Assembly (NCBI RefSeq): GCF_015354315.1
Contig: NZ_JADKYY010000012.1
Coordinates: 1-64,000, forward strand
Direction of reading: 5' to 3'
Source: Planobacterium oryzisoli
Lineage (GTDB): Bacteria; Bacteroidota; Bacteroidia; Flavobacteriales; Weeksellaceae
DNA: 64,000 nucleotides
This document shows, one piece after another, positions 1,673 through 48,327 of the stretch. Position numbers and translations under genes: made by a program. Position 1 is the first letter of the stretch. Every line of letters starts with the position of its first letter. The notes under the pieces are model-generated. The model was given only the letters and a program-made list of their open reading frames with translations, ran no database searches and was not told the origin of the DNA.

Positions 1673-1695
1673 TGCCGTTAGCGGAATTTATTTTC

Positions 1696-1703
1696 TATTT
1701 TTG
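1696..1703 (+). promoter_or_regulatory. Bacteroidota -7 element TATTTTTG
   Basis: The sequence matches TAnnTTTG and lies 18 nt upstream of the GTG start at 1721. No good -33 TTTG is visible at the usual spacing. Confidence 0.5.
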
Positions 1704-1720
1704 CACCAAAACCCGAACTA

Positions 1721-2998: not shown

Positions 2999-3004
2999 CC
3001 TTGC

Positions 3005-3535
3005 CTATTTGGCTTCTACACAGAAAACGCGGTACTGTACTGCAACTGCAGACCTGAAAGCGCTTCTGATTCGGGCTAAATCAGAGGCGGCGGACTGACG
3101 GGAAATATAGCTTCCTGCTAGGATCTTGTAATTAGGACGAAGAGACGCATCGGTCTCTACTTTAATTCCTGGGAAACGGCTCCTGAAGTTGGCTTTCACC
3201 TGATTGGCTTCCGCATTACTCTTTACCACCGCAACCTGAATTTTGTACCCAAGAATACGGGGGTTCTGTTTGCATATTTCCGCTCTGGACAGCGGTCTGG
3301 ACGGGGTATTATTTACCACTCGAGGTGTAGAGGGAGTGTATTCGGCATTGTCTTTCGCCTTTTCCATTAGTTCGCACTTCTCTTGCAGATCGGATAAGGA
3401 CTTTTGAATTTTAGCATCCATAGAAACCGTTAAGGGAGTACCGGAAATCGTATCAGTGGTGCGGACCTGTTGCCCCTGAAGGTGGAGGGAACCCATAAGG
3501 GTAAGTACCGCAAGAATTCGTAGCGAAAATTTCAT
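3005..3535 (-). CDS. secreted SPOR-domain protein
   Basis: A 176-aa protein with a cleavable signal peptide (residues about 1-21, ending Leu-Gln-Gly-Gln). A short helical, Cys-containing middle part is followed by a C-terminal SPOR domain from about residue 105: a GYKIQVAV strand, a helix, a second repeat KILAGSYISR and a helix. SPOR domains bind denuded glycan strands of septal peptidoglycan, so a cell-envelope or division role is likely. It has its own promoter and is divergent from the act operon. The stop codon directly faces the end of the membrane-protein gene. Confidence 0.85.
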   Translation of the reverse strand: MKFSLRILAVLTLMGSLHLQGQQVRTTDTISGTPLTVSMDAKIQKSLSDLQEKCELMEKAKDNAEYTPSTPRVVNNTPSRPLSRAEICKQNPRILGYKIQVAVVKSNAEANQVKANFRSRFPGIKVETDASLRPNYKILAGSYISRQSAASDLARIRSAFRSAVAVQYRVFCVEAK

Positions 3536-3551
3536 TAAAACAGTGTTTATG

Positions 3552-3582
3552 CAAATTTACTACAAATAAAAATCATACCAAA
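3552..3582 (-). promoter_or_regulatory. promoter of the SPOR gene (TTTG-N19-TAAATTTG)
   Basis: On the minus strand, TTTG (3582-3579) is followed after exactly 19 nt by TAAATTTG (3559-3552). This is a full match to the Bacteroidota -33/-7 consensus. The start codon lies about 17 nt downstream. Confidence 0.8.
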
Positions 3583-3641
3583 TGCTATTATTTAGAACTG
3601 TTATAAATTAAATCAAAAGGCTTTTGGCTGCTTTTATTACG

Positions 3642-3673
3642 TTGTTAAATTGTTGTTAAAAAGCTTACTTTTG
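3642..3673 (+). promoter_or_regulatory. promoter of the act operon (TTG-N21-TACTTTTG)
   Basis: A -7 element TACTTTTG (3666-3673) is preceded by TTG (3642-3644) with a 21-nt spacer. The predicted start site is near 3680, giving a leader of about 43 nt before actA. Confidence 0.65.
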
Positions 3674-3722
3674 CAGAATTGAATGTATACTCATCAATTT
3701 TTACTAACCCAAGATTATTTAA

Positions 3723-5093
3723 ATGATTAGTTGGAGAAAGCATTACAAAAGGGGTTTACTGGCGATAACTTTATTGCTTACAACCACCGCTTCAGTCCAC
3801 GCTCAGGACGGGGATCCTAAGAACGGAGAAAAACTTTTCAAAGCACAATGTGCCGCATGCCACGCCCTGGATAAACAGATGGTAGGTCCGGCATTAGGCG
3901 GTGTGGTGGAACGCTTGAAAACCGAACAAAATCTGGATATTGACTGGTTGCGAAGCTGGATCAAGGACAACGAAGCACTTCGGGCCTCTGGAGATAAATA
4001 TGCCAATGAGGTATATGAAAAATTCAATAAGACGCCAATGACTCCGTTTCCGAATCTCTCGGACAAGGACATTGACGATATTTTGGCCTATACCACTAAT
4101 CCGCCTGCTCCAGAACCTGCAGCTGCCGCAGAGGGCGGGGCTTCGCAGGCCGACACTATCGCTGCATTAGAGGAGGCTAGAAAACAAAGCGATAATTCTA
4201 AGATTCTTTTAATCTCCCTGGGTTTTATAGCTGCACTGCTTCTATGGCTTCTTCTTAGGCTGCGTCAGCTCGTGAAGCTTAGCCAAAGCCAGGAGCTTGC
4301 AGAACTCGATCAGACGAGAATTCACAGCATTGGGGATTTTTATTCCAAATACAAGTTGGTAGGTCAGGGATTGCTTGGGCTACTGGCGCTTTTTGCTTTC
4401 TACGGGGTATGGAACTGGACAATGGATATTGGGGTCTATAAGGGCTACAAACCAGAGCAGCCTATTTACTTTTCGCATAAAATCCATGCGGGAGACAACA
4501 AAATTGATTGCCAGCTTTGCCACTCCTCAGCCAAATACGGAAAAGTATCGGAAATTCCTTCCATGAATGTGTGTATGAACTGCCACCGGAACATCTCTGA
4601 GTACAACGGAGCGTATCTGGAGCCAGGAAAAGACAAGGCATTCTACGACGGGGAAATCCAGAAAATATATGCTGCCACCGGTTGGGATCCGGAAAGCCAG
4701 TCCTATAAAAACAAGCCGCAGCCGGTAGAATGGGTGCGCATCCACAACATGCCGGATTTCGTGTATTTCAACCACGCCCAGCACGTCGTTGCCGGGGAAC
4801 AGGCGATTCTAAATTCCCACAACAAGAAAAACCCTAACGATCAGATTGACGTTGTATGTAAAGCGTGCCACGGTCAGGTAGATACCATGAATGTTGTATC
4901 CATGGCCAATGACTTTACAATGGGCTGGTGTATAGAGTGTCACCGAACGACTGAGGTCGATATGAATAATGGATATAACAAGGAATACTTCCAAAATCTT
5001 CACGACAAGCTGAAGAAACAGTATCCGAAATCCGAAGGTAAGATCACTGTAGATGCAATCGGAGGTCTTGAGTGTGGTAAGTGTCATTATTAA
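3723..5093 (+). CDS. actA: alternative complex III subunit A: monoheme cytochrome c fused to pentaheme cytochrome
   Basis: Electron-output subunit of the quinol:electron-acceptor oxidoreductase ACIII. A signal peptide (about 1-28) leads into a class-I cytochrome c domain with CAACH at 43-47 and a likely axial Met at 106. An Ala/Pro linker, one membrane helix (about 161-180) and a second (about 214-232) follow. A periplasmic part then carries five CXXCH motifs at 263, 284, 379, 403 and 451, so there are six c-type hemes in all. Family knowledge places the pentaheme part next to ActB, passing electrons out of the iron-sulfur chain. It is the first gene of actABCDEF, 22 nt before actB. The extra N-terminal heme domain is the notable point. 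Confidence 0.95.
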   Translation: MISWRKHYKRGLLAITLLLTTTASVHAQDGDPKNGEKLFKAQCAACHALDKQMVGPALGGVVERLKTEQNLDIDWLRSWIKDNEALRASGDKYANEVYEKFNKTPMTPFPNLSDKDIDDILAYTTNPPAPEPAAAAEGGASQADTIAALEEARKQSDNSKILLISLGFIAALLLWLLLRLRQLVKLSQSQELAELDQTRIHSIGDFYSKYKLVGQGLLGLLALFAFYGVWNWTMDIGVYKGYKPEQPIYFSHKIHAGDNKIDCQLCHSSAKYGKVSEIPSMNVCMNCHRNISEYNGAYLEPGKDKAFYDGEIQKIYAATGWDPESQSYKNKPQPVEWVRIHNMPDFVYFNHAQHVVAGEQAILNSHNKKNPNDQIDVVCKACHGQVDTMNVVSMANDFTMGWCIECHRTTEVDMNNGYNKEYFQNLHDKLKKQYPKSEGKITVDAIGGLECGKCHY

Positions 5094-5115
5094 TAACGAA
5101 AAATCAGAAGTATAA

Positions 5116-8100
5116 ATGGCTTCAAATAAAATACAATTCAGAAGTATTCACGAACTTAAAGACCCGGCACTTAACCATAAGCTGGCTCAGAAGGAATTTC
5201 AGGACGAAATTCCGGTGGACGAATTTTTGGAAGATGCAAACAACTCCCAGAGCAGTTCTACCTCCAGGAGAGACTTCTTAAAACTACTTGGATTTTCCAC
5301 AGCGGCCGTAACGCTTGCTGCGTGTGAGGCTCCGGTGATAAAGACAATTCCTTACGTAGTTAAGCCCCACGATATCATTCCTGGCGTACCTAACTACTAC
5401 GCAACTTCGTATTTTGATGGTGCAGACTTTGCCAGCGTACTGGTAAAGACCCGTGAAGGGCGGCCGATAAAAATCGAGCCGAACCCTGCTGCAGGAGCCT
5501 TGGGTAAAACCAGTGCCCGTGTACAGGCAGGAGTGCTTTCTCTATACGACAACGATAAAGTAAAACAACCGAAATTAAACGGTAAGGACGAGACCTACGA
5601 TAAAGTCGATGACTATGTAATTAAAGCACTTAACGAATCGCAGGCTGGAGGGAAACGTATTGTACTATTATCCCACTCTTATCCTTCACCAACGTTTAAA
5701 AAGCTCTTTGCTGAGTTCCAGGCGAAGTATCCTACCGCAGAACTGGTAACCTACGATGCATTACCGCACGCTGCGGCTCTTGAAGCAGCCGTGGAAGTTT
5801 TTGGCACGCGCGCACTTCCAGTATACGATCTTTCCCAAACCGAACTGGTCGTTTCTTTCCAGGCGGATTTCCTGGGCGACTACAACACAGGAGGTCTGGA
5901 AACATCCTATGCACTGGCCAAAACGCCGGGACCGAATATGCTTCGCCATATTCAGGTGGAATCCAACCTTTCTTTAACGGGTGCAAATGCCGATGAGCGC
6001 ATCCGTCTTAAGCCAAGTGCTGTGAACAAGCTTCTTGTAGATGTGTACAACGCACTAAACGGAGGATCTGCAAGTGGCCAGGCAGCGCAGATCGCGAAAG
6101 AACTTTCTGAAAAAGGCTCGAAAGCCGTTGTATTTGCAGACGGATCAAAGGCTGCCTACGTACTGGCACACGTTATCAATCAGAAACTCGCCTCGCAAGC
6201 ATTTACAGGCAAGGCCAGTACTCTGAGAGAATTTGACGCTAAGCGCTATGAGGAATTCCTGGGATGGCTTAATGCCGGACAGGTAGGAGTCTTAATTGCA
6301 CACCGCGTCAATCCGGTATACTCTTCAGCGAAGGGAGCGGAGTTCCAGAAACTACTGGAAAAAGCGACCCACGTGGTTGCAGTTACCGATAAGAAAAACG
6401 AAATGTATAAGGCTGCCAAGGTGGTTATTCCTTCCACCCACTGGTTAGAATCTTGGGGAGATCTTTCTCCGCAAAGCGGAGTGTACGCCCTTATGCAGCC
6501 TACTATTTCCAAAGTATACAAGCCTAGACAGATTGAAGAATCCCTACTGGTTTGGTTAAACGGAAAAGGCCACGAAAACAATAATTTCTACAATTATCTA
6601 AAGGCAAGCGCTACTACCCTTCTCGGGGATGTATCTTTTAATAAGGCGCTTTATAATGGTCTGAATCAAGTAGCTTCAACCGCTACGCTGAGTTACGCCG
6701 GCGGCAACGCGCAAGGCGCAGTAGCGGAGCTGTCGCGATTCAAGGCTTCCGATCTGGAACTTGTCCTGTATACTAGTACCGCGATCGGAGACGGAACCCA
6801 AGCCAACAACCCTTGGCTGCAGGAACTGCCGGATCCAATTACGCGTCTATCCTGGGATAATTACCTGACGGTATCTCCAAAGGATGCGGAACGTCTGGGA
6901 CTGGTAAACGACCTGAACGGAAGGATGCAGCTTGATGGCTCGGTAGTGAACGTAAAGGTAGGAAATACCACCCTTAATAATGTTCCTGTATTCATTCAGC
7001 CAGGACAGGCCGAAGGTTCTTTAGGACTTGCTTTGGGATACGGTAAAAAAGATTCCGGCAAAGTAGCCGAAACAGGAATCAACGCATACCCACTCTTTGA
7101 CGGTATGAACACCACCCTGTCCGGAGTTTCTCTTGAAAAAGTGGGCGATATGCATGAGTTCGCCGGCATGCAGCTTCAGAACACCCTGATGGGACGCTAC
7201 GAAATTGCACGTGAAGTTCCTTTAGAATCGTTCCTGAATGTAGCATTCGACGACAAGCAGAATGGATGGAATAAGCCACTCGAATACCACACATTGACAG
7301 AGTCTACTCCTGCTGGAAAAATTACTCTTTGGGATGAGTTTGACGATACGGACGGACCACACTTTAACCTCTCCGTAGATTTGAATGCCTGTACCGGATG
7401 TGGAGCTTGTATCATAGCGTGTCAAGCCGAAAACAATGTCCCTGTTGTAGGTAAGGAAGAAATCAGAATGTCTAGAGATATGTACTGGCTGCGTATCGAC
7501 AGATACTACTCCGCAAGAGAAAAAATCACCACTAAGGAGCAGATTGACCGCAACCTTAATGTGCCGCAGGTGTACGATATCCTTATCGACCCGGCAGAGA
7601 ACCCAGATGTGATCTTCCACCCGGTAATGTGTCAGCACTGTAACCACGCACCATGCGAGACTGTATGTCCGGTGGCTGCAACTTCCCATGGTAAGCAGGG
7701 TCAGAACCAAATGGCCTACAACCGTTGTGTGGGTACAAGATACTGCGCGAATAACTGTCCGTACAAAGTGAGACGTTTCAACTGGTTCAATTACGCGCAG
7801 AACGATAAGTTTGACTTCAATATGAACAACGACCTTGGTCGAATGGTACTTAACCCAGACGTGGTAGTAAGAACCCGTGGGGTTATGGAAAAATGCTCTA
7901 TGTGTATTCAGATGACCCAGAACACTATTCTTGAAGCCAAGAAAGAGGGCCGCAGAATAGTAGACGGTGAATTCCAGACAGCATGTTCCAAAGCATGTTC
8001 TACAGGAGCTATGCAGTTTGGCGATATGAACGACAAGGACTCTCAGGTTCGCAAACTATTTACAAGCAACAGAAGATATACGCTGCTTGAAGAGATTGGA

Positions 8101-8160
8101 ACCAAGCCGAATGTCTTCTACCATACCAAAGTCAGAAACAGAAAAGAAAACAAAGTTTAA
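5116..8160 (+). CDS. actB: alternative complex III subunit B, iron-sulfur/molybdopterin-like protein
   Basis: A 1014-aa periplasmic ACIII subunit. A twin-arginine motif RRDFLK sits at 51-56 in a long N-region, followed by a hydrophobic stretch ending in a lipobox-like LAAC (Cys70). The large middle part resembles the molybdopterin oxidoreductase fold but is thought to bind no cofactor in ACIII. The C-terminal quarter is a ferredoxin-like unit with four cysteine groups: CxxCxxC starting at 759, a second from 839, and further groups near 871 and 927-960. These would hold Fe-S clusters carrying electrons from quinol towards ActA. It lies between actA and actC. Confidence 0.95.
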   Translation: MASNKIQFRSIHELKDPALNHKLAQKEFQDEIPVDEFLEDANNSQSSSTSRRDFLKLLGFSTAAVTLAACEAPVIKTIPYVVKPHDIIPGVPNYYATSYFDGADFASVLVKTREGRPIKIEPNPAAGALGKTSARVQAGVLSLYDNDKVKQPKLNGKDETYDKVDDYVIKALNESQAGGKRIVLLSHSYPSPTFKKLFAEFQAKYPTAELVTYDALPHAAALEAAVEVFGTRALPVYDLSQTELVVSFQADFLGDYNTGGLETSYALAKTPGPNMLRHIQVESNLSLTGANADERIRLKPSAVNKLLVDVYNALNGGSASGQAAQIAKELSEKGSKAVVFADGSKAAYVLAHVINQKLASQAFTGKASTLREFDAKRYEEFLGWLNAGQVGVLIAHRVNPVYSSAKGAEFQKLLEKATHVVAVTDKKNEMYKAAKVVIPSTHWLESWGDLSPQSGVYALMQPTISKVYKPRQIEESLLVWLNGKGHENNNFYNYLKASATTLLGDVSFNKALYNGLNQVASTATLSYAGGNAQGAVAELSRFKASDLELVLYTSTAIGDGTQANNPWLQELPDPITRLSWDNYLTVSPKDAERLGLVNDLNGRMQLDGSVVNVKVGNTTLNNVPVFIQPGQAEGSLGLALGYGKKDSGKVAETGINAYPLFDGMNTTLSGVSLEKVGDMHEFAGMQLQNTLMGRYEIAREVPLESFLNVAFDDKQNGWNKPLEYHTLTESTPAGKITLWDEFDDTDGPHFNLSVDLNACTGCGACIIACQAENNVPVVGKEEIRMSRDMYWLRIDRYYSAREKITTKEQIDRNLNVPQVYDILIDPAENPDVIFHPVMCQHCNHAPCETVCPVAATSHGKQGQNQMAYNRCVGTRYCANNCPYKVRRFNWFNYAQNDKFDFNMNNDLGRMVLNPDVVVRTRGVMEKCSMCIQMTQNTILEAKKEGRRIVDGEFQTACSKACSTGAMQFGDMNDKDSQVRKLFTSNRRYTLLEEIGTKPNVFYHTKVRNRKENKV

Positions 8161-8178
8161 ATAATAATAAGGTAACAG

Positions 8179-9573
8179 ATGTCACACTACGAAGCCCCGA
8201 TTAGGGAACCTTTAATTATTGGTCACAAAACTTATCACGATATCACAGAAGATATCGCCCGACCTATTGAGGAAAGAGCTGGAAAACTTTGGTGGATCTC
8301 ATTCTACGCAGCACTGGTTCTTTTCATTTACGGATTTGGATGCATCGCCTATACCATTGGTACAGGTATCGGTGCGTGGGGTCTGAACCGGACTATCAAC
8401 TGGGGTTGGGATATTACCAACTTTGTATGGTGGGTAGGTATCGGTCACGCAGGAACGCTGATCTCTGCGGTACTCTTATTATTTAGACAGCGCTGGAGAA
8501 TGTCCGTAAACCGTTCTGCAGAGGCGATGACAATTTTTGCCGTAGTACAGGCGGCCATCTTCCCGGTGATTCACATGGGTAGAGTATGGGTAGGCTACTG
8601 GGTTTTCCCTATTCCTAACCAGTACGGATCGCTTTGGACCAACTTCAACTCCCCACTTCTTTGGGACGTATTTGCAATTTCTACCTATTTCTCTGTATCC
8701 ACGGTATTTTGGTTCATGGGACTTATTCCGGACTTTGCTATGATTCGTGACCGCGCAAAAACCCCTTGGACCAGAAAGATCTATACCTTCCTGGCGTTTG
8801 GATGGGGTGGAAAGGCCAAGCACTGGCAGCGCTTTGAAGAACTTTCTCTAGTTCTTGCGGGTCTTGCCACACCACTTGTATTCTCGGTACACACCACGGT
8901 ATCTTTCGACTTTGCTACTTCGGTTATCAAAGGATGGCATTCCACAATTTATCCTCCGTACTTTGTTGCGGGAGCGATCTTCTCCGGATTTGCCATGGTA
9001 CAGACTCTTCTTTTGGTAGCTCGGAAAGTAGCCAATCTGGAAGACTACATTACCATGTACCATATTGAAATCATGAACATCGTTATTATTGTAACAGGAG
9101 GTATGGTAACGGTAGCGTACGCGGTAGAATATTTCATCGCCTGGTACTCAGGAAGTAGATACGAAGACTTTGCATACCTTACGCCGGGAGCAGCTACAGG
9201 GCCATACTGGTGGGCGTTCTGGTCACTAATTATCTGTAACCTGGTCGTACCTGCTTCGTTTTGGTTCAAGAAGCTTAGAACCAATATCATTTGGACATTC
9301 TTCGTAGCCCTTATCATTAACATCGGTATGTGGTTCGAACGTTTCGATATTATCGTAATTAACCTTTCCAGAGACTATTTACCAAGTGCATGGACCATGT
9401 TTATGCCAACCATTATCGATGTGGGAGTCTACTTAGGAACAATCGGGTTCTTCGGAGTACTTTTCCTACTCTATGCCAGAACATTCCCTGTCATTGCACA
9501 GGCCGAGCTTAAGTCTATTTTGAAAATTTCAGGTGAAACTTATAAAGCAAAAGAAGGAGATGAGCACCACTAA
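8179..9573 (+). CDS. actC: alternative complex III subunit C, NrfD/PsrC-like quinol-oxidising membrane subunit
   Basis: A 464-aa integral membrane protein with about ten helices arranged as two NrfD-like bundles. Members of this family carry the quinol site on the periplasmic side and a possible proton pathway. The His-rich and acidic residues within helices (for example the GHAGTL segment near residue 92 and HTTVSFDFA near 236) fit the family. It overlaps actD by 14 nt, indicating translational coupling. ActF later in the operon is its structural counterpart. Confidence 0.95.
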   Translation: MSHYEAPIREPLIIGHKTYHDITEDIARPIEERAGKLWWISFYAALVLFIYGFGCIAYTIGTGIGAWGLNRTINWGWDITNFVWWVGIGHAGTLISAVLLLFRQRWRMSVNRSAEAMTIFAVVQAAIFPVIHMGRVWVGYWVFPIPNQYGSLWTNFNSPLLWDVFAISTYFSVSTVFWFMGLIPDFAMIRDRAKTPWTRKIYTFLAFGWGGKAKHWQRFEELSLVLAGLATPLVFSVHTTVSFDFATSVIKGWHSTIYPPYFVAGAIFSGFAMVQTLLLVARKVANLEDYITMYHIEIMNIVIIVTGGMVTVAYAVEYFIAWYSGSRYEDFAYLTPGAATGPYWWAFWSLIICNLVVPASFWFKKLRTNIIWTFFVALIINIGMWFERFDIIVINLSRDYLPSAWTMFMPTIIDVGVYLGTIGFFGVLFLLYARTFPVIAQAELKSILKISGETYKAKEGDEHH

Positions 9574-10081
9574 AACCATATACGGCCTCTACGCCGACGA
9601 CGACGATTTGATGAATGGTGTGAAAGCATTCAGAGAAAAGGGAATTGAAATTGCCGAAGTGTATACACCTTTTCCTGTCCATGGGCTGGATAAGGCACTA
9701 GGCCTGAAAAAGACCCGGATTTCCGACGCCGCATTCCTATACGCAGTGTATGGGGTAACCATTGGAGCGCTCACTACCTGGTATATGATGAACCACGACT
9801 GGCCACAGAATATCGGGGGGAAACCTGCCTTTTGGTGGGCCCATAATATGCCTGCTTTTGTGGTACCTATGTTCGAGCTTATGGTATTCTGTGCAGCGCA
9901 CATGATGTCTCTTACCTTCCTGTACCGGAACAAGATGTACCCTGGAGCTCCGGCGCAGAATCCTGATCCCCGTACTACAGACGACAAATTCATGATGGAG
10001 TTTGTAAGCGACGATGTGGAAAAAATTAAGCAGCTTCTCGTTGAAACCGGAGCTGAAGAAATAACCGTAAAAGACGCTTAA
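9560..10081 (+). CDS. actD: alternative complex III subunit D (DUF3341)
   Basis: A 173-aa subunit with a cytoplasmic N-terminal domain beginning MSTTKTIYGLYADDDDL, two membrane helices (about 55-75 and 100-120) and a short polar tail. The ATG at 9560 is chosen over the in-frame ATG at 9533. Homologues begin with this sequence, and a purine-rich AAGGAG lies directly before it. It overlaps the end of actC by 14 nt and is followed by actE after one base. Confidence 0.9.
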   Translation: MSTTKTIYGLYADDDDLMNGVKAFREKGIEIAEVYTPFPVHGLDKALGLKKTRISDAAFLYAVYGVTIGALTTWYMMNHDWPQNIGGKPAFWWAHNMPAFVVPMFELMVFCAAHMMSLTFLYRNKMYPGAPAQNPDPRTTDDKFMMEFVSDDVEKIKQLLVETGAEEITVKDA

Positions 10082-10082
10082 A

Positions 10083-10751
10083 ATGAAAAGAAATATTGTA
10101 AAGGTATCTGCTGCTATAGCTTTTGCGAGTTTTATGCTACTTTCTTGCGGCAAAGGAAACCCTCCACTGGTATACTTCCCGGACATGTACTTTCCGGTAG
10201 CGTATGATCCACTTCAAAAGGCGGAGGATCCCTACAGCAAGCACGATAATGAAATTCCGGCATTTGTAAAGCAGAACGGTGCCACCGGTCTAGCGCCTGT
10301 TGAAGGAACCGTAGCCCAGAATAAAGACGGCGTTTTTGCGGAAAGTTTACTTCCTAAGAACGTGGACGAATACAACGCCGGGTACGATGCTTCCAAAGCA
10401 GTTAATACAACACCGCTTACCACCGTAGCGGAGAAAGACTTAGAGAGAGGAAAAGTGCTTTTCGACCGTACTTGCGCGGCCTGTCACGGCACAGCAGGGG
10501 ACGGTCAGGGGCCTATCGTAGCAAGTGGTGCCTACGCAGGTGTGCCTAATTTTGCAGACCGTGAGTTGACAGTAGGCTCCGTTCACTACGTTATTGTCAA
10601 TGGACGAAACGCCATGGGGTCCTACGCTGGACAACTCAACGCTGGTGACCGCTGGAGAGTGGCTATGTATGTAATGAACGCATTTAAAGGGGGCATGACT
10701 ACCTCTGCCGCTATGCCAGCAGCTACCACTGATTCAACCGCTACTCAATAA
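10083..10751 (+). CDS. actE: alternative complex III subunit E, monoheme cytochrome c lipoprotein
   Basis: A 222-aa lipoprotein: signal peptide with lipobox LLSC (Cys22), an extended linker that in known ACIII structures wraps the complex, then a cytochrome c domain with CAACH at 131-135 and probable axial Met178. The C-terminal tail is Ala/Thr-rich and probably disordered. With the six hemes of ActA this gives seven CXXCH motifs in the complex. The gene starts one base after actD. Confidence 0.93.
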   Translation: MKRNIVKVSAAIAFASFMLLSCGKGNPPLVYFPDMYFPVAYDPLQKAEDPYSKHDNEIPAFVKQNGATGLAPVEGTVAQNKDGVFAESLLPKNVDEYNAGYDASKAVNTTPLTTVAEKDLERGKVLFDRTCAACHGTAGDGQGPIVASGAYAGVPNFADRELTVGSVHYVIVNGRNAMGSYAGQLNAGDRWRVAMYVMNAFKGGMTTSAAMPAATTDSTATQ

Positions 10752-25217: not shown

Positions 25218-26102
25218 TTACTTTTTTGTTTTGGCAGGAGCGCTGCGCTCAATGCTGTTGTTGTTTTCGTTTAAGAATTTCTTGAGCTGCTCCTCCTGAT
25301 TCTTAAGCATTTGTGCTACGGAAGTCCCGTCCGGCATCTTTGCATCGTGGGGAACCTGTGCGAGCTGCGAACGTATGGATCCGAACGGATCTTTACGGTA
25401 GGCCTCGTACATCTGTTCAAAACGCTTTCTCTCCACCATTAGTGTCTCGCCGCGTCCGCCACCGAATTCCTTCTGCATCTTCTCGGAGTAGGAAATTTCC
25501 TGAAAATCCGCAACCGGCTTATTGCCTTTCAGCTCCCAGGAATAGTGGTTTTCACTGTCGGAGATCTTTACGATCAGCCCCGGAAGTCCGTGGAACTTAT
25601 AGGGTCCGTCCGGCATAGGAAGCTCCGTGGAGAACCATGCGGTCCAGCTTCTTCCTCCGAACTGCGTGGTGGCTTTCTGCGCGGAATATTCTCCAATCAT
25701 GGATTTTTCTTCCTGAATTTTCCAATCGAGCTTAAGCTTTTCTTCGTAACCGACCACGTCCTGAAGGATCTGGTCGGTATAACGGATATCCATGGAAGGA
25801 TAGGTCTTGGTAATTTTATAACTGAATTTCGGCGTCTTGAACATCTTGGAGAGGTCTTTGAACGTACCGCTCTTACGCATCTTTTCCATCTCTACTTCCA
25901 GCAGAGAGTCCTGCGACACCATAAGAAAATCACGGTATAGAGACTTGTCCTTAGTGACGTCCAGAATGGTCATCGTCTTATGCAGCGAATCCACCTCCAC
26001 GCCTGGACGGTAGGTAAGTTCGTAGAAAAAACGGTTGGCACTCACTTGGGCTGTGACCCCAAGGGCGACCATAAACAGACAAAGCGCTAGTATTCTTTTC
26101 AT
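25218..26102 (-). CDS. GLPGLI family secreted protein
   Basis: A 294-aa protein with a signal peptide (about 1-22, ...VTAQVSA). The central block contains QKATTQFGGRSWTAWF and the family signature GLPGLI (near residue 180), followed by a charged C-terminal helical tail. The family is nearly confined to Bacteroidota and has no proven function; members are extracytoplasmic. Here it stands alone, not next to a TonB-type receptor, unlike the copy at 33652. It has its own terminator. Confidence 0.9.
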   Translation of the reverse strand: MKRILALCLFMVALGVTAQVSANRFFYELTYRPGVEVDSLHKTMTILDVTKDKSLYRDFLMVSQDSLLEVEMEKMRKSGTFKDLSKMFKTPKFSYKITKTYPSMDIRYTDQILQDVVGYEEKLKLDWKIQEEKSMIGEYSAQKATTQFGGRSWTAWFSTELPMPDGPYKFHGLPGLIVKISDSENHYSWELKGNKPVADFQEISYSEKMQKEFGGGRGETLMVERKRFEQMYEAYRKDPFGSIRSQLAQVPHDAKMPDGTSVAQMLKNQEEQLKKFLNENNNSIERSAPAKTKK

Positions 26103-30950: not shown

Positions 30951-33644
30951 ATGAAACACACGCTGCTTTTGCTCACGTTCTTTTTCTCCGCACTCTTCTA
31001 TGGACAGAGCACCCTGAAAGGAAAAGTTACCGATGAGGACGGCTCCGGGGTCGGAAGCGCTTCGGTAACGGTAGAAGAGCCTGGAAAAGATGCCATCATC
31101 GCCTATGCCCTGACCAACTCCAAGGGGGAATACACCCTTACTTTTACCTCCGAGCAGAGTCAGGTGGATGTAAAGGTAAAGGCATTCAACCACCGAAGTA
31201 CCCTTAAGGTGGTGAGTAACAGCTCTCAGAATGTGGATTTTACCATTCAGACGGAAGCGACCGAAATCAAAGAGGTAAAACTAAAAACCCGCCTTATTAC
31301 CAAGCGCGGAGATACCATTGCCTACGATTTGAACGAGTTCGACAGCAAAAGCGACCGTACCCTCTCCGATGTACTAAAGAAGATACCGGGGATCGAGGTC
31401 AACAGCAGTGGCGCCATCCTCTACCAGGGGGAGCCTATCAATAAATTCTACGTCAACGGAAAGGACCTTATGGAAGGGGGCTACGGCACCGTGGTCAATG
31501 CGCTTCCCAAAGACGCGGTACAGAAAATGGAGGTGATGGAAAACCACCAGCCCATTAAATCCCTGCAGGATAAAATCCCTTCGGAGAATGCTGCCATTAA
31601 TATCAAACTTAAAAATAAAGTCACCATGACCGGGCGCGGAGAAGTAGGCGTGGGCATGGATCCGCTGCTTTGGAACGTGAAACTCACCCCCATGTTCTTT
31701 GGACAGAAAAACCAGTGGGTACTGAACTACAAAGCCAACAACAGTGGGGAATCGGTAGAAAACGAACGCAATATCCTGGCCTTTGGTTCGCGCTTTGAGG
31801 GCACGCGCCGCCAGGCCGCCCAGCGCAGCTGGCTGGGTGTGGACCGCGCCCAGGTGCCCAATGTCCCGGAAAAGCGCTACCTCTTAAACAATGTACATTA
31901 CCTCTCGGCCAACCTACTTACCAGTCCTTTCAAGGACAAAGAGTGGGAACTTAAAGTAAATGCCAGCTACTCCAATAATTCCATTGAGCGCTCCTCCTTC
32001 CGCGAGACCATCTACGAGCCCTCGGAGTATTTTCCTTCAGGCGCCAGTGCACGCACGGACCTGAGCAACGATTTCTACGCACAATCGGCCAAGGGGGAAG
32101 TGATTTTAACAAAGAACGCCAAGAAAGGGTTCTTTAAAAATACCACTACCTGGAACGGTTTCTGGAACGACGACCGCGGCATGGGACGCATCGTAGACTC
32201 CCGCACGGGAACCATCTCCATGGACCAGAAACTCAAGTCCCCAAGCGGAATGTTCCAGAACTCCTTAAGTACCATCATACCTTTTAAAGACAAAATGGTC
32301 AACGTGATGAGCTACATTAGCCACCAAAAGGACCGGCAAAACCTCTCGGCAGAATATGAGAATTTCCAGGATTTCGAAGACTATTTCGGGCAGAACTTCT
32401 CCAGATTAGACCAGCAGCTCGAACTTCAGACCACCAATATCAACCACTCGGCCTCGGTAGGCTTTAACGTGAAGCGCTGGACCCTTTCCCCGGAAGTAGG
32501 ACTCAATATGTCCCTTAACGAGATGAATTCCCTCCTGGAAGGAGACGGCGTAGCCCTGGGAGAGGACTTTAGAAACGATATGCGTTGGAACGAGCTGAAT
32601 CCCTACACCCAGCTGGGAATTAACTACAAAGGAGGGGGACTGAATATGAATATCACCCTACCGATGAATTTCTACGGCATCACCTACAAGGACCAGATCC
32701 GAAACACCTCTCAGGACATCAGCAGAAGTGTCTTTGAACCGAGCTTCTGGGGAAGCTACGATTTCACGTCCTTCTGGAAGCTCTGGGCCTTTGCCAATGT
32801 AAACTATAATTTTGGGGATTTTGGTTCCCTTTATTCGGGGAACATTCTCAGCTCCCCGCAGAATATCGGAAACAACGACAACCTGCTTCCTGAGACCCGC
32901 AGTACCACCATCGCTCCGCGCCTGGAGTACCGCAATCCACTGAACAACCTGTTTTTCAATCTGCGCTACGCCCAAAGCAGCGTGAAGCGTAACCTTATTG
33001 CGCGTACTACCATCTTCTCCTCCGGAGCCAATATCAGTGAATTGGAATACTTTGACAATACCACGCGCTCCTCCAACCAAAGCGCAGAGATTGGTAAGTA
33101 TTTTCCTAAGTTTAAGACCAACCTTTCCACTACGGTCTCCAACCGCGATAATAACGGTTATTCCCTGCTTGTAAACCAGTCCACCGGGGAGAGCAATTTG
33201 ATTGAAACCGAGACCAACGGACAGAGCTGGAGCCTGAAATTCAACAACAGCTATTTCTCCTGGATGAGTGTGGACTACAGCCTTTCGATGAACTGGAATA
33301 AGAACAAGAACCTTTTCTACGGCAATGAGATAAAAACCTCCGGATGGAGCCATAATCTGGCGGCGTACTTCTACCCTATTGAAAACCACACCATTGGATT
33401 CTTCTGGGACGAGGGCACCACCTCACAACTGGATGAGAGCTTTAGAAACTCTTTCTACGATCTTTCCTACCAGTTCTCCTGGGCTAAGAAGAAGATGGAT
33501 TTCGAGGTGAAATGGCTAAATATTGCCGGTACCAAAGTCTACGAGCAGATTTCCTACAACACGAGTCTTCTCTCCACTACGCGAAGCAGTATGCAGATAC
33601 GTCCAAGCCAAGTCCTGTTTACTGTGAAGTTTAACTTTAAATAA
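30951..33644 (+). CDS. TonB-receptor-like outer-membrane beta-barrel with carboxypeptidase-like N-domain
   Basis: An 897-aa outer-membrane protein. A signal peptide (about 1-20) precedes a carboxypeptidase-regulatory-like beta sandwich (about 21-105: LKGKVTDEDGSGV...). A plug-like domain (about 110-220, with LKKIPGIEVNSSG and the FYVNGKDLMEGG segment) is followed by a large beta-barrel ending in aromatic-rich FTVKFNFK. The architecture is that of Bacteroidota barrel proteins paired with GLPGLI partners; the ligand is unknown. The GLPGLI gene starts 7 nt after it, so they form one unit. Confidence 0.88.
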   Translation: MKHTLLLLTFFFSALFYGQSTLKGKVTDEDGSGVGSASVTVEEPGKDAIIAYALTNSKGEYTLTFTSEQSQVDVKVKAFNHRSTLKVVSNSSQNVDFTIQTEATEIKEVKLKTRLITKRGDTIAYDLNEFDSKSDRTLSDVLKKIPGIEVNSSGAILYQGEPINKFYVNGKDLMEGGYGTVVNALPKDAVQKMEVMENHQPIKSLQDKIPSENAAINIKLKNKVTMTGRGEVGVGMDPLLWNVKLTPMFFGQKNQWVLNYKANNSGESVENERNILAFGSRFEGTRRQAAQRSWLGVDRAQVPNVPEKRYLLNNVHYLSANLLTSPFKDKEWELKVNASYSNNSIERSSFRETIYEPSEYFPSGASARTDLSNDFYAQSAKGEVILTKNAKKGFFKNTTTWNGFWNDDRGMGRIVDSRTGTISMDQKLKSPSGMFQNSLSTIIPFKDKMVNVMSYISHQKDRQNLSAEYENFQDFEDYFGQNFSRLDQQLELQTTNINHSASVGFNVKRWTLSPEVGLNMSLNEMNSLLEGDGVALGEDFRNDMRWNELNPYTQLGINYKGGGLNMNITLPMNFYGITYKDQIRNTSQDISRSVFEPSFWGSYDFTSFWKLWAFANVNYNFGDFGSLYSGNILSSPQNIGNNDNLLPETRSTTIAPRLEYRNPLNNLFFNLRYAQSSVKRNLIARTTIFSSGANISELEYFDNTTRSSNQSAEIGKYFPKFKTNLSTTVSNRDNNGYSLLVNQSTGESNLIETETNGQSWSLKFNNSYFSWMSVDYSLSMNWNKNKNLFYGNEIKTSGWSHNLAAYFYPIENHTIGFFWDEGTTSQLDESFRNSFYDLSYQFSWAKKKMDFEVKWLNIAGTKVYEQISYNTSLLSTTRSSMQIRPSQVLFTVKFNFK

Positions 33645-33651
33645 TCCACCT

Positions 33652-34518
33652 ATGCAACGAGCTGCCCTACTTCTTATTGTTCTCTTTTCCTCGGCCCTTT
33701 CTTCCCAGACGCGCGCCATCTACGAGTACCGCTTTGCGATTGATTCCACCCGAAAGGACAGCGTGGTAAGTGAGCTGATGTATCTGGATATATCCGAGAA
33801 GGGCAGTAAATTCTACAGCAAGCAGGCCCACGACAGTGATTCCCTTGCAGCGGCGGAGGTAAGAAAACAGATCGCCTCGAAATCCTCTAACATACAGATC
33901 AAGCGCTCGGGACAGAGTGCCGTGGGCTTTGAAGTGGAAAAAACGCCCCAGAAAGAGGTGTATCTCCTAACCACTGTGGGGCGTGACTACTTCCGGGTCA
34001 AAGACGAGCGAGAGCTCTCCTGGACAATCCATCCCGAGACCGCCGTGCATGAAGAGCTTAAAATACAGAAGGCCACCACGCAGTTTGCAGGAAGGGAGTG
34101 GACCGCCTGGTTTAGTCCCGAGGTACCGATTGCGGAAGGTCCCTACAAGTTCCACGGACTTCCGGGACTGATTATAAAGCTTGAGACCAAAGACCAATCG
34201 CATAGCTTTACCCTCAAAGGCCTTAGGAAATCCCCGGGTTCTTCGGCCGACATGTCCCTTCCCCAGGGCGTGGAGGTGCCGTTCTTCTCGCGCAAACCCA
34301 TCGAAGTGGACCGCAAACAGTACAACAAACACCTTGAGCAGTACCGAAAGGATCCCGTGCAGGGCATGCGTGAGATGCTCTCTCAGCCTAATTCCAAGGT
34401 GGTAATCAATGTAGGGGGCGTGGAGTACTCAAATCCCCAGGACATACTGCGTCAGATGGAGAAGAGCGCAAAAGAGCGCGAGAAGAAACGCAACAATCCA
34501 ATAGAGCTGGAAAACTAA
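33652..34518 (+). CDS. GLPGLI family secreted protein, partner of the outer-membrane barrel
   Basis: A 288-aa protein with a signal peptide (about 1-19) and a core with QKATTQFAGREWTAWF and GLPGLI (near residue 172). The C-terminal tail is basic and Asn-rich. It is clearly paralogous to the proteins at 25218 and 47207 through this core. Immediate linkage to the barrel gene suggests a periplasmic or surface partner of that receptor; this is inference from gene order. Confidence 0.9.
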   Translation: MQRAALLLIVLFSSALSSQTRAIYEYRFAIDSTRKDSVVSELMYLDISEKGSKFYSKQAHDSDSLAAAEVRKQIASKSSNIQIKRSGQSAVGFEVEKTPQKEVYLLTTVGRDYFRVKDERELSWTIHPETAVHEELKIQKATTQFAGREWTAWFSPEVPIAEGPYKFHGLPGLIIKLETKDQSHSFTLKGLRKSPGSSADMSLPQGVEVPFFSRKPIEVDRKQYNKHLEQYRKDPVQGMREMLSQPNSKVVINVGGVEYSNPQDILRQMEKSAKEREKKRNNPIELEN

Positions 34519-44836: not shown

Positions 44837-46201
44837 ATGGGGGTACTAGAAAATAAAAAGAAAATTACTGCAAAGTGGTATGTTGCATTTTCCTTAATTT
44901 CTGTTCTTGCTATTTCGGCATTATTTATTCCTGACTCAAATGACTCGACTCCTGATCCAAGACGATTTTTAACTGAGAAAGATATCGTCCCTTCGGACAT
45001 AGCTTGGGTGTTGTCCGCAGCAGGACTGGTTCTTTTAATGACTCCAGGACTTTCATTTTTTTATGGCGGTATGGTTGGAAAGAAAAACATTATTTCAACC
45101 ATGCTTCAAAGTTTTGTTTCTCTTGGTGTAATCTCCATTCTTTGGCTTGCCGTTGGATTTTCCCTATCATTTGGAGAATCTTTAGGCATCACCTTAGCAG
45201 GTGAGCATTACGGCCTTATTGGAAACGCACTCTCCTATCCTTTCTTTTTAAATGTACCACTGGTTCCACATAAGGACATGGCACCAACCATTCCCTTTGT
45301 ATTGTTTGCTTTATTTCAAATGAAATTCGCGGTTATAACCCCTGCACTTATCACCGGATCATTCGCAGAGCGTGTACGTTTTATTGCGTACTTACTTTTC
45401 ATTGTTTTGTTTTCTCTTTTAATTTACTCTCCGCTCTGTCATATGGTGTGGCATCCAAATGGACTGCTAAACAAGTTCTTTGGTATTAAAGATTTCGCAG
45501 GGGGTACCGTGGTTCATATCAGCGCTGGCTTCGCAGCACTTGCAGGTGCATTAAAACTAGGAAGAAGAACCAGTCCACACCATGAGCCCTCCAACATTCC
45601 ATTTGTAATCCTAGGAACAGGCATGCTTTGGTTTGGATGGTTTGGCTTTAACGCAGGGTCAGCCTTATCAGCAAGTCCAACCGCTGCGCTTGCATTTGGA
45701 ACAACCACCATCGCTTCAGCGTCTGCTATGATGACTTACATCTTTTTTGATCGAATCAATGGGCGAAAAATATCCGCTGTTAGCGCATGCATTGGCGCAG
45801 TGGTAGGCCTTGTGGCCATCACACCTGCCGCTGGATTTGTTACAATTCCTGAAAGTTTGTTTATTGGATTCATTTCGGCTATCACTTCAAACCTCATGGT
45901 GAACTGGAAAAAACTTAAAAAAATAGACGATACGCTGGATGTTTTTGCTTGCCATGGTGTTGGCGGTATTATGGGAATGATTTTAACCGCTGTTTTTGCG
46001 CACGGTGAAAATGCCAGTCTTTTACATGGAGGCTTTTGGGTATTCCTTCATCACATGGCAGCTCTTATCCTTGTATGCGTATTTTGCCTTTTTGGCGCTT
46101 TGGTCATTTACGAAATCACCAACCGACTTATTCCACTAAGAGTTTCCAGCACTTCAGAAGAGCTTGGACTCGATCTCTCTCAACACGATGAAAAACTGTA
46201 G
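44837..46201 (+). CDS. amt: ammonium transporter Amt
   Basis: A 454-aa Amt/Rh channel with 11 helices plus an N-terminal signal-like segment. The family features are visible: GGMVGKKNIISTMLQS, GSFAERVRF, the pore-His segment GGTVVHISAGFAAL and the second pore His in DTLDVFACHGVGGIMG. No P-II regulator gene is adjacent. The longer frame from 44744 is rejected because it would start upstream of the promoter. A broken gene and an islet follow. Confidence 0.94.
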   Translation: MGVLENKKKITAKWYVAFSLISVLAISALFIPDSNDSTPDPRRFLTEKDIVPSDIAWVLSAAGLVLLMTPGLSFFYGGMVGKKNIISTMLQSFVSLGVISILWLAVGFSLSFGESLGITLAGEHYGLIGNALSYPFFLNVPLVPHKDMAPTIPFVLFALFQMKFAVITPALITGSFAERVRFIAYLLFIVLFSLLIYSPLCHMVWHPNGLLNKFFGIKDFAGGTVVHISAGFAALAGALKLGRRTSPHHEPSNIPFVILGTGMLWFGWFGFNAGSALSASPTAALAFGTTTIASASAMMTYIFFDRINGRKISAVSACIGAVVGLVAITPAAGFVTIPESLFIGFISAITSNLMVNWKKLKKIDDTLDVFACHGVGGIMGMILTAVFAHGENASLLHGGFWVFLHHMAALILVCVFCLFGALVIYEITNRLIPLRVSSTSEELGLDLSQHDEKL

Positions 46202-46227
46202 CATATATTTTTGATTTTTAAGGAAGG

Positions 46228-46261
46228 CCGCCAAAGAGTAAAATCTGAGGCGGTTTTTTTT
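46228..46261 (+). terminator. terminator of amt
   Basis: A CCGCC/GGCGG stem (46228-46232 with 46249-46253) with an A-rich interior, followed by eight T residues (46254-46261). Confidence 0.8.
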
Positions 46262-46538
46262 CTCACAATTTTAAATTTCTTCGATTATAAAAACAATAGG
46301 ATTTGGGATTAATCATACCCAACAAAATTAAGACTGTACGCTATTTTTACTCCAAAACTACATACTATTCATTGTTGTAAAACCCATACATATCGGCGTT
46401 TAAGCGAATTTTTTCACTTTATATTAAAAAGCAAAAAGAAACCTAAGAATTAATTTCTTAACCTTAACTAACTAGAAAACAAAGCCATTATGCGGTGCAT
46501 TTTTCTTTAGAGCTAAAATCAATTAAACCTTTTAAATC
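46262..46538. other. AT-rich intergenic stretch after amt
   Basis: No gene, RNA or good promoter found. It leads to the ATG of a 31-codon remnant. Confidence 0.5.
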
Positions 46539-46634
46539 ATGAGAAAAACCTTATTCATCTTTCCCCTTGTAGCGTCTTTAGCGCTTTTTCAGGCACAAGA
46601 AAACCTTAATTTTGGCGCCTCTTTTTATGTGTAA
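46539..46634 (+). pseudogene. 5' remnant of an exported-protein gene
   Basis: The ATG at 46539 opens 31 codons encoding a good signal peptide (hydrophobic core LFIFPLVASLALF, cleavage after QAQ) and about 12 mature residues before a stop. The mature start NLNFGASFYV looks like the first strand of an outer-membrane protein. Position after amt suggests a lost porin-type gene, cut where the tRNA-linked sequence begins. The identity is inference. Confidence 0.5.
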
Positions 46635-46670
46635 AATGGCAAAATTTGGGGTAAAATTTAGGGTAATAGG

Positions 46671-46705
46671 GAAAAGAAAAAGCACCTACAAAAGTCTGTA
46701 AGTGC
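46671..46705 (-). terminator. terminator beyond the tRNA-Asn 3' copy
   Basis: A 9-bp stem (46682-46690 with 46697-46705, one G-U) with a 6-nt loop. On the minus strand it is followed by an interrupted T tract (46681-46671). It probably was the original terminator of tRNA-Asn before insertion of the islet. Confidence 0.7.
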
Positions 46706-46722
46706 CTGATTTTCAACTGCTA

Positions 46723-46761
46723 CTCCTGCTAGGCTCGAACCAGCGACCCTCTGATTAACAG
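46723..46761 (-). repeat. 39-bp partial copy of tRNA-Asn (att-like direct repeat)
   Basis: Matches 48257-48295 with one difference (46731). It covers the anticodon loop, variable loop, T arm and most of the acceptor 3' strand. The T stem stays paired through G-U. No 5' half of a tRNA is present, so it is not a functional gene. This is the duplication left by integration at the 3' end of a tRNA gene. Confidence 0.88.
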
Positions 46762-46922
46762 AAGGCCAAGCCTACTTTTCATCTATTTGCATCCTGTTGT
46801 ATATCAATGAAATAGCAAATTTTTCCTTTCCGTCTTTTTCCCATTTTTTCATTGTTTCACACAAAATGTTTCAGTATTGTTTCAGGAGATTTGTTCATGG
46901 CAGAAGATTGCAAAGCTTGCAG

Positions 46923-46954
46923 TTTCTGCAATTTCTGCAGAATTGATATATTTG
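46923..46954 (+). promoter_or_regulatory. promoter of the small peptide gene
   Basis: A -7 element TATATTTG (46947-46954, perfect) with TTTC (46923-46926) 20 nt upstream as a one-mismatch -33. The predicted start site is near 46961. An imperfect palindrome (AATATG/CATATT arms, 46969-46989) lies in the leader. Confidence 0.6.
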
Positions 46955-47011
46955 TCCAACCTATAAATAATATGGACAATGGACATATTGTTCATTAGAA
47001 AATCTGTCCCA

Positions 47012-47143
47012 ATGAAAAAATCTGTTTTTAGATTAAGCGATACAAATCAACATGTCAATTACGACACATTTGATATTGCGGATGCAGACAACATGCGAAC
47101 TGTTAAGAAATTACCAGTTCTTGTAACAAGTGTATGTAACTAA
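47012..47143 (+). CDS. 43-aa peptide, candidate peptide precursor of unknown type
   Basis: A short gene with its own promoter and terminator. The first 32 residues are polar and acidic in the middle (DTFDIADADN), then basic Lys-Lys. The last ten residues are hydrophobic with a single Cys and end Val-Cys-Asn. This leader/core look is that of ribosomally made modified peptides, but there is no Gly-Gly cleavage site and no modifying enzyme next to it. I do not recognise the family. An in-frame ATG at 46979 would add 11 residues. A GLPGLI gene and a truncated C39-like gene follow on the same strand. Confidence 0.55.
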   Translation: MKKSVFRLSDTNQHVNYDTFDIADADNMRTVKKLPVLVTSVCN

Positions 47144-47149
47144 AACTTT

Positions 47150-47182
47150 AAAGGCTGTTTTTATTCAAGAAGCAGCCTTTTT
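47150..47182 (+). terminator. terminator after the peptide gene
   Basis: An 8-bp stem (47150-47157 with 47173-47180) ends in a run of T (47178-47182). It lies between the peptide gene and the GLPGLI gene, so it may give high peptide expression with partial read-through. Confidence 0.75.
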
Positions 47183-47206
47183 ACTTCAAATGACAATATT
47201 ACAATT

Positions 47207-48010
47207 ATGAAAAACTATTTTTTATTTATTTTTTTTACATTTAGCATTTTAAACGCTCAAAATATAACATTTATTTATGAAGTAAAGAATAAATCCAATC
47301 CTAACATTAAGGATTATTTCACAGAAAATTATTATTTAGATGTTTTGGGGTTACAATCGGTATTTCGTTCAGAAAAAGATAGAATTTCAGATTCGCTTGT
47401 TGAGAAGTCTGGTTATGGATTGGGACGTAAAATAAATTTTAATAATCAATTATACTCCTATAAAAATTTAGCGAACAAATCTGTTAGAAAAAATATAACG
47501 TCACCTTCCAATGATAATTATTTTATAAATATTACAGAACCTCTTAGATGGAAAATACAAACAGATACTATTAAAATTTCTCAATTTAATTGTCAAAAAG
47601 CAAATGTTTCATACGGTGGACGGAATTGGACAGCGTGGTTTACCTCAGATATTTCTATTTCTGATGGACCATACATCTTTTACGGATTACCAGGTTTAAT
47701 TATAAAAATGCAAGATGAGAGTCAAGACTATATCTTTAATATGATTGAAGTTATAAACTCTAATAAGAATAATATGTTTGCATTGAGAAATGGAAAAGAA
47801 ATTACGTGGGATACATATAGGAAATTACTGATAAACTATTATGACAATCCTTTTTCAGAAATTAAAACAATGGGGGTAAAATACCAGTCCGTAGACAGTA
47901 ATGGGCAGCCAATAAATGTAGATTTAAAAAGTTTAACAGAAAGTACCCAAAGACAAATAAAGAATTATAACAATCCATTGGAACTAAATCATAAAATAGA
48001 TTTTAAATAG
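47207..48010 (+). CDS. GLPGLI family secreted protein, islet copy
   Basis: A 267-aa protein with a signal peptide (about 1-17, ...ILNAQ) and the core GGRNWTAWF with GLPGLI (near residue 164). It is much more AT-rich and divergent than the copies at 25218 and 33652, so it was probably acquired rather than locally duplicated. It lies between the peptide gene and a truncated C39-like gene, inside the tRNA-bounded islet. Function unknown. Confidence 0.88.
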   Translation: MKNYFLFIFFTFSILNAQNITFIYEVKNKSNPNIKDYFTENYYLDVLGLQSVFRSEKDRISDSLVEKSGYGLGRKINFNNQLYSYKNLANKSVRKNITSPSNDNYFINITEPLRWKIQTDTIKISQFNCQKANVSYGGRNWTAWFTSDISISDGPYIFYGLPGLIIKMQDESQDYIFNMIEVINSNKNNMFALRNGKEITWDTYRKLLINYYDNPFSEIKTMGVKYQSVDSNGQPINVDLKSLTESTQRQIKNYNNPLELNHKIDFK

Positions 48011-48012
48011 TT

Positions 48013-48213
48013 ATGAATTTAGATAAGCTAACCAAAAAACTTAACGTAAATACTCAAGAATTTAAATTCCAATTCCAATCCCATCCCAATTATCCCTCTG
48101 CATTAGCATTAAGTGATACCTTAAACTTTTTAGGTATTGAAAATTCCGCTTATGAATTAGAGAAAGAATATTGGAATGAAATCCCAACCGAAGAATGTTT
48201 CAGGCAAAAATAG
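48013..48213 (+). pseudogene. truncated C39-peptidase-like N-terminal domain
   Basis: Sixty-six codons, of which the first 60 match the N-terminal C39-like domain of Bacteroidota membrane proteins that continue with vitamin K epoxide reductase and thioredoxin parts (key text SHPNYPSALALSDTLNFLGIEN). No catalytic Cys is seen in the normal place. The match stops near codon 60 and the frame ends in an unrelated CFRQK. Complete homologues are several hundred residues, so this is a 3' truncation at the islet edge, 2 nt after the GLPGLI gene. Confidence 0.65.
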
Positions 48214-48250
48214 AAAAAGGGTTTCACATTTCTGTAAAACCCTCTGTTTT
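48213..48250. terminator. bidirectional terminator at the tRNA 3' side
   Basis: A 7-bp stem (48218-48224 with 48237-48243) has a T run on the plus side (48247-48250) and a longer one on the minus side (complement of 48213-48217). It ends both the truncated gene and tRNA-Asn. Confidence 0.75.
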
Positions 48251-48254
48251 AAGC

Positions 48255-48327
48255 TCCTCCTGCTGGGCTCGAACCAGCGACCCTCTGATTAACAGTCAGA
48301 TGCTCTAACCAACTGAGCTAAGGAGGA
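48255..48327 (-). tRNA. tRNA-Asn (anticodon GTT)
   Basis: A 73-nt cloverleaf on the minus strand. The 7-bp acceptor stem pairs 48327-48321 with 48261-48255. The D arm is GCTC/GAGC, the anticodon GTT is at 48293-48291, and the T arm has TTCGAGC. No CCA is encoded. Its 3' part is duplicated at 46723-46761. Confidence 0.96.
48257..48295 (-). repeat. 39-bp att-like repeat inside tRNA-Asn
   Basis: Partner of 46723-46761, with one mismatch at 48265. The two copies bound about 1.5 kb of AT-rich DNA. Confidence 0.88.

Follow-up and report, generated by a model that had tools for sequence, protein, structure and literature searches.

A GLPGLI gene in the probable remnant of a microcin-like peptide locus at a tRNA-Asn gene of Planobacterium oryzisoli

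Does the short open reading frame (ORF) that precedes a GLPGLI gene and the beginning of a C39-like protein gene in Planobacterium oryzisoli (assembly GCF_015354315.1, contig NZ_JADKYY010000012.1) belong to a peptide system, as a preliminary description of this DNA proposed, and what might the GLPGLI protein do in such a system? We analyzed the whole stretch of 64,000 nt at positions 1 to 64,000 of the contig (called the window below), together with related loci and genomes. The segment of about 46762-48295 is most probably what is left of a microcin-like peptide locus gained by horizontal transfer. Its features and borders are as follows:

46719-46761, forward strand: left direct repeat (attL-like, 43 nt), a copy of the 3' half of tRNA-Asn with 95% identity to 48253-48295
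46947-46954, forward strand: promoter box of the -7 type, TATATTTG, which fits TAnnTTTG
47012-47143, forward strand: 43-codon ORF of the preliminary description, taken here as an out-of-frame chance ORF
47110-47139, forward strand: what is left of a Cys-rich, GLPGLI-paired peptide gene, the tail ITSSCNKCM-stop, out of frame with the 43-codon ORF
47150-47180, forward strand: hairpin and T-run resembling an intrinsic terminator (-15.5 kcal/mol), between the peptide position and the GLPGLI gene
47207-48010, forward strand: intact GLPGLI gene (267 aa; TIGR01200, PF09697)
48013-48192, forward strand: first 60 codons of a C39-like/VKOR/thioredoxin fusion gene, with the ORF running on to 48213 without further homology
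48253-48327, reverse strand: intact tRNA-Asn (GTT), of which 48253-48295 is the right repeat copy

The GLPGLI gene, the C39-like fragment, the hairpin and the -7 box named in the preliminary description are present, but it had missed the near-copy of tRNA-Asn on the left, which brackets the segment together with the intact tRNA gene. The G+C content of 46001-48000, 31.5%, is low for the window, where 28 of 32 bins have 44-53%. A relative (locus L018) lacks the insert and provides an empty site, to which the joined flanks of the window align unbroken. The direct repeats and this empty site show that about 1.5 kb was inserted at the tRNA-Asn gene, as in a tRNA-integrated genomic island. No Pfam match to an integrase was obtained among the three minus-strand ORFs of 46775-46995, and the remaining insert consists of the GLPGLI gene and the fusion stump; an integrase remnant at the left end was considered and rejected, the sole Pfam match being Na_H_antiporter at E 0.16. 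Just left of the tRNA repeat ends a 31-codon ORF (46539-46634, forward strand) that resembles a signal peptide with the start of a secreted protein; it has no match in Pfam or NCBIfam and is perhaps another truncated gene.

The GLPGLI gene that the preliminary description had placed here is intact and a full member of its family of unknown function, matching TIGR01200 at 136.8 bits over residues 2-211 (cut-off 50) and PF09697 (Porph_ging) at 40.7 bits, with the GLPGLI motif at residues 160-165. Its N-terminus, MKNYFLFIFFTFSILNAQ, is signal-like in appearance and forms a helix in the model. At E 1e-25, 269 of 316 genomes of the bacterial family contain a match to this protein, and the source genome holds four GLPGLI genes. 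The protein model, based on 38 sequences (pLDDT 87.4, pTM 0.83), superposes on the PNGase F-II N-terminal domain with Z 14.9 and an rmsd of 3.1 over 174 residues (Foldseek E 1e-8), the match spanning 17-212 of the model and 1-184 of the chain, and it is also similar to LolA, a periplasmic carrier (E 1.2e-4, Z 7.8). VioE, ependymin-related proteins, LolA and RseB are weaker matches with Z of about 6-8, where values below 8 may mean just a common arrangement. Likeness to PNGase F-II in sequence is faint (18.7 bits against a cut-off of 27.6; E 0.023), and in contrast to that enzyme the GLPGLI protein has no catalytic part (267 aa compared with about 540). A periplasmic cup for a hydrophobic or peptide ligand would be a reasonable reading of the modelled fold.

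Downstream, the preliminary description had correctly recognized the N-terminus of a C39-like protein of the type fused to VKOR and thioredoxin. The stump represents about 60 of the about 505 residues of its relatives, and homology ends at residue 60. Over these 60 residues it is 58-74% identical to the strong matches, most of which are open frames of 500-570 codons, and matches were found in 67 of 197 family genomes, the weaker ones descending to 33% identity. A full-length relative carries VKOR at 150-276 and thioredoxin at 349-493, both missing from the window gene, which is cut after residue 60, and the first 140 residues of that relative gave no Pfam match. The modelled N-terminus of the fusion (pLDDT 74.7) has a helix-and-sheet layout, and PCAT1 and HlyB appear among its weaker structural matches (ranks 32, 33 and 46), which makes a C39-like domain likely but does not prove it. 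Where the neighbouring ABC transporters read DCGPTC, five of the six fusion sequences shown, including that of the window, read PNYPS or PDYPS and the sixth PNYSS. Without the catalytic Cys, the C39-like domain of the fusion is probably not a peptidase. In another locus (L096) the VKOR fusion is split into ORFs of 306 and 185 codons.

We then compared the insert with the loci of its relatives. Among 20 loci fetched around relatives of the stump, 15 contain an ABC transporter with a C39 domain, 15 an HlyD protein, 10 a GLPGLI gene (found with the window protein) and five the ATP-grasp and SPASM maturases of the grasp-with-spasm type. The same loci carry short genes with the leader MKNLKKLSRxELKxxxGG and a Cys-rich core, and the one such peptide tested matches NF047798 ("bacteriocin-like protein"). 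In the loci of the best 80 of 581 relatives, which are mostly from Chryseobacterium but also from Elizabethkingia, Kaistella, Epilithonimonas, Bergeyella and others, the same maturases occur in 13 and the VKOR fusion in 10. The broader proposal of the preliminary description, that peptide, terminator, GLPGLI and C39/VKOR genes belong together, is borne out in living relatives but not for the 43-aa sequence of the window, where the peptide is dead. It had also supposed that the missing Gly-Gly site and partners were elsewhere or lost, and so came half-way to the explanation: relatives have a Gly-Gly leader, and their lack in the window is explained by decay and truncation.

The association of peptide and GLPGLI genes was then quantified. 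A pattern search covered 27 other loci that offered a usable ORF, all chosen by likeness to the window GLPGLI, and in 13 of them it found a peptide directly before GLPGLI, at a gap of 56-102 nt; two of 30 loci (L112 and L127) offered no such ORF. Three genomes of one or two contigs each (G217, G304 and G248) contain 46 leader genes, and for 13 of these a GLPGLI gene starts within 600 nt downstream on the same strand, compared with 0.09 expected; this count leaves out leaders below the cut-off and five GLPGLI matches above it (one each in G217 and G304, in frames longer than 550 codons, and three partial ones in G248). Across all loci examined, including those of the best 80 of 581 relatives, 44 of 90 leaders lie within 400 nt of a GLPGLI gene and 44 of 159 GLPGLI genes are preceded by a leader, and in the loci of the best 80 alone a detected leader precedes 12 of 103 GLPGLI genes. 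Conversely, 33 of the 46 leaders in the three genomes have no GLPGLI gene close by. As most GLPGLI genes have no detected leader upstream and most of these leaders have no GLPGLI nearby, GLPGLI cannot be an immunity family alone; it is a broad family, one branch of which is tied to peptides.

Within this branch the two genes change together. The 44 pairs, from loci including those of the best 80 of 581 relatives and picked by likeness to the window proteins, were reduced to 40 distinct pairs, for which core and GLPGLI distances are strongly correlated (Mantel r 0.888; 0 of 5000 permutations). The correlation persists among 29 representatives less than 70% identical in GLPGLI (r 0.808; 0 of 5000 permutations). 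When each GLPGLI is matched to its closest counterpart from a different locus, the two have the same class of peptide core in 39 of 40 cases, against at most 35 in permutations. Two loci, L096 and L099, hold three peptides each, every one with its own GLPGLI. As far as sequence comparison can tell, this shows that peptide-GLPGLI pairs persist as units, and linked genes would diverge together even without binding. The pairs of L096 form an array (1200-10500) that seems to be decaying and that contains genes resembling transposases.

These observations suggest how a living locus may operate, with every step drawn from gene content. The short peptide with its Gly-Gly leader would be made in excess over GLPGLI through terminator read-through, and its leader would be cut and the peptide exported by the C39-domain ABC transporter and its HlyD partner. 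The VKOR/thioredoxin protein would form the disulfides of the peptide, and the C39-like domain of the fusion, which has no catalytic Cys, may serve only to bind the leader. The paired GLPGLI protein would act as a periplasmic, LolA-like cup for its own peptide. The most likely role for GLPGLI is immunity, our first choice because the pairs are one-to-one, change in step and are not required by all leader peptides, but we put it forward tentatively, at slightly below an even chance. The fuller proposition is more doubtful, namely that in this GLPGLI branch every member is the cognate immunity protein of one particular disulfide-rich microcin with a Gly-Gly leader, within a system that is widespread among Chryseobacterium and its relatives, with dedicated VKOR/thioredoxin oxidation and a LolA-like cup fold common to the N-terminal domain of PNGase F-II. 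If it were true, the window GLPGLI would be an orphan immunity gene that has outlived its toxin gene.

By analogy with the handling of lipoproteins by LolA, GLPGLI might instead be a periplasmic escort, folding or maturation helper that receives the exported peptide from the ABC transporter prior to its release from the cell. The LolA-like fold and the exporter and oxidase genes that surround GLPGLI at some loci would suit such a helper, and a dedicated one would diverge with its peptide too. We nevertheless consider it rather unlikely, since the 33 leaders without a nearby GLPGLI indicate that it is not needed for export generally, and one GLPGLI for each of three peptides in L096 and L099 fits immunity better than a shared helper. 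A lower chance still is given to GLPGLI being a mere frequent neighbour of peptide genes in accessory regions, with no functional tie. The family is large (about 20-40 matches in each of three genomes) and most of its copies have no leader peptide beside them, as this explanation would have it, but the excess of 13 of 46 leaders over 0.09 expected, the fixed order with a terminator in between and the matched divergence make it unlikely.

Immunity remains our preferred role for the paired GLPGLI proteins, and the window probably shows what is left of one such pair. A tblastn search of the related peptides against 46762-47206 revealed EITSSCNKCM-stop at 47107-47139, outside the frame of the 43-codon ORF. 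Related peptides end in TSSCWKCM, TSTCMKCM, NSCNRCM and similar tails, and nine of 23 peptides of the GLPGLI-paired class have a CxxCx ending. A profile built on the nine C-terminal residues gives the window tail, which stands at the right distance from GLPGLI, 19.5 bits, a value attained by none of 5000 simulations, and true family tails have a median of 19.3 bits (range 2.6-23.0), so that it lies near the median. It also ranks first among the 4996 stop codons of the window, at 19.3 bits against 7.2 for the runner-up; the profile giving 19.5 bits left out the WGLxC cores (L107 and L109), which the one giving 19.3 bits took in. As a control, the region 20-130 nt before each of 117 GLPGLI genes without a detected leader was scanned, yielding four tails at 18.1-20.5 bits, one at 9.3 and then 5.2. 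Leader detection is thus incomplete, the tail scan having given four more paired peptides. A tblastn match ending 56-110 nt before GLPGLI was equalled by three of 2000 simulations, and without the position limit by 21 of 2000.

Less is preserved further upstream. The stretch just before the relic tail does not reach significance (equalled in 207 of 2000 simulations), no trace of a leader was found in any forward frame of the peptide region (266 of 300 as high), the whole-core profile gives a weak 2.2 bits (reached by 54 of 2000) and likeness to related peptide genes at the DNA level is not significant (264 of 300). These four results indicate that nothing of the peptide gene is recognizable beyond its final ~30 nt, and its frame is broken by stops at 46996, 47029, 47071 and 47104. 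On sequence grounds, the peptide gene in the window has evidently decayed. The simulations for ORF length, tail, tblastn, upstream stretch, leader trace, whole core, DNA-level likeness and terminators were first-order Markov chains, not exact shuffles. Another tail, ITSXCRKCL with an internal stop, lies 22 nt before the GLPGLI gene at 5995 in L145 and is possibly a second dead peptide gene.

The -7 box and the hairpin around the peptide position were reported accurately in the preliminary description. The Bacteroidetes -7 consensus is TAnnTTTG, and TATATTTG at 46947-46954 is its sole match on the forward strand of 46762-47206. In related pairs, TAnnTTTG occurs within 150 nt upstream in 14 of 40 (6.0 expected), and 29 of 40 have a hairpin plus T-run after the peptide (9.8 expected). 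The terminator scanner used for the related pairs allowed loops of up to 8 nt; owing to this limit it passed over the hairpin at 47150-47180 and gave another in the window.

The 43-codon ORF itself, which had been read as a peptide gene, is not supported as one: its length is expected by chance, no relative was found and it is in the wrong frame. An ATG ORF of at least 43 codons arises in 50% of 5000 first-order simulations of 46762-47206, and its codon score was reached by 39% of simulated sequences, a test of little weight, since it does not distinguish the GLPGLI gene either. The short-ORF search that had been advised returned no homologue, an outcome that the preliminary description had itself set down as counting against the peptide. 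The best non-self matches were E 0.042, inside a 328-codon frame, in 320 family genomes, none being convincing, and E 0.038, inside a 700-codon frame, in 395 order genomes that overlap the family set. Neither plasmids (best E 0.7, Sinorhizobium) nor phages (best E 5) gave a convincing match, and nothing under E 3.7 was found among 1439 small ORFs of 20 related loci. The Val-Cys-Asn tail remarked on earlier is a shifted reading of Cys-Asn-Lys-Cys-Met. That the ORF is a real, fast-evolving orphan gene that replaced the Gly-Gly peptide and is served by GLPGLI would agree with the -7 box, the terminator, the 63-nt gap to GLPGLI in the same layout as in relatives (peptide position, hairpin, GLPGLI) and a frame open over 54 codons, but it is very improbable given the chance length, the lack of homologues, a leader profile score of 0.4 bits and the significant signal in another frame. 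The window copy carries a caution: a short ORF may look convincing, with a promoter box before it and a terminator after it, and yet be a dead gene read in the wrong frame.

The rest of the system was then sought in the source genome, whose assembly has 20 contigs and is listed as 99.98% complete. No ABC transporter with a C39 part was found in it, as the eight matches at E 1e-10 all start at query residue 162 or later, and it gave no match to leader genes at E 0.5. A search with the fusion N-terminus as query found the stump alone. These three results support the reading of the locus as a relic with an orphan GLPGLI gene; the system in this genome probably no longer works, and GLPGLI is probably an orphan partner.

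Several parts of this picture are related to known systems. Double-glycine peptide export is known, and leader peptides of this kind have already been named in NCBIfam as NF047798 (leader_Chryseo, "bacteriocin-like protein") and NF047792 (CCPGW family putative bacteriocin), family names that do not mention GLPGLI. Relatives carry such peptides directly before GLPGLI, and the window relic tail matches the tails of this GLPGLI-paired class, whereas the window lacks the leader and the gene is broken. Likewise, the C39-domain ABC transporter and HlyD of the related loci correspond to PCAT double-glycine export, but this exporter is not in the insert and the ABC matches of the source genome have no C39 part. 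The maturases found in 5 of 20 and 13 of 80 (best 80 of 581) related loci with GLPGLI or the VKOR fusion are those of grasp-with-spasm graspetides (TIGR04192 and TIGR04193); in contrast, the insert has no maturase and its relic tail is of the Cys-rich type. Such maturase pairs stand with GLPGLI genes in L088, L091, L093, L094, L099 and 13 of L133-L212 (best 80 of 581), some of these loci having short Gly-Gly peptides outside the Cys-rich type, a hint that graspetides, too, may be accompanied by GLPGLI.

In the literature, GLPGLI genes are listed in a PhoP regulon in PMC9603813. VKOR appears in the available parts of neither PMC8939145 nor PMC10352776, and neither is among the papers found to name GLPGLI. 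A pairing of GLPGLI with secreted peptides was not found in the open-access literature searched, and its novelty is only as good as that search. The new points are that GLPGLI genes pair with peptides, that both diverge jointly and that a fold can be assigned; the window, for its part, is a case of ordinary decay. The repeated pairing with bacteriocin-like peptides offers a testable function for a branch of a common family of "unknown function", for which the papers searched proposed none. It also gives a partner, together with a likely oxidase and exporter, to peptides that had been annotated but left unexplained.

Two further GLPGLI genes lie in the window. One (33652-34518, forward strand) begins 7 nt after a gene for an 897-aa protein (30951-33644, forward strand) with an N-terminal carboxypeptidase-regulatory-like domain, and is another GLPGLI setting, in a genome in which no leader peptide was found. 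The other (25218-26102, reverse strand) is located beside the gene of a DUF2520 protein, near feoB.
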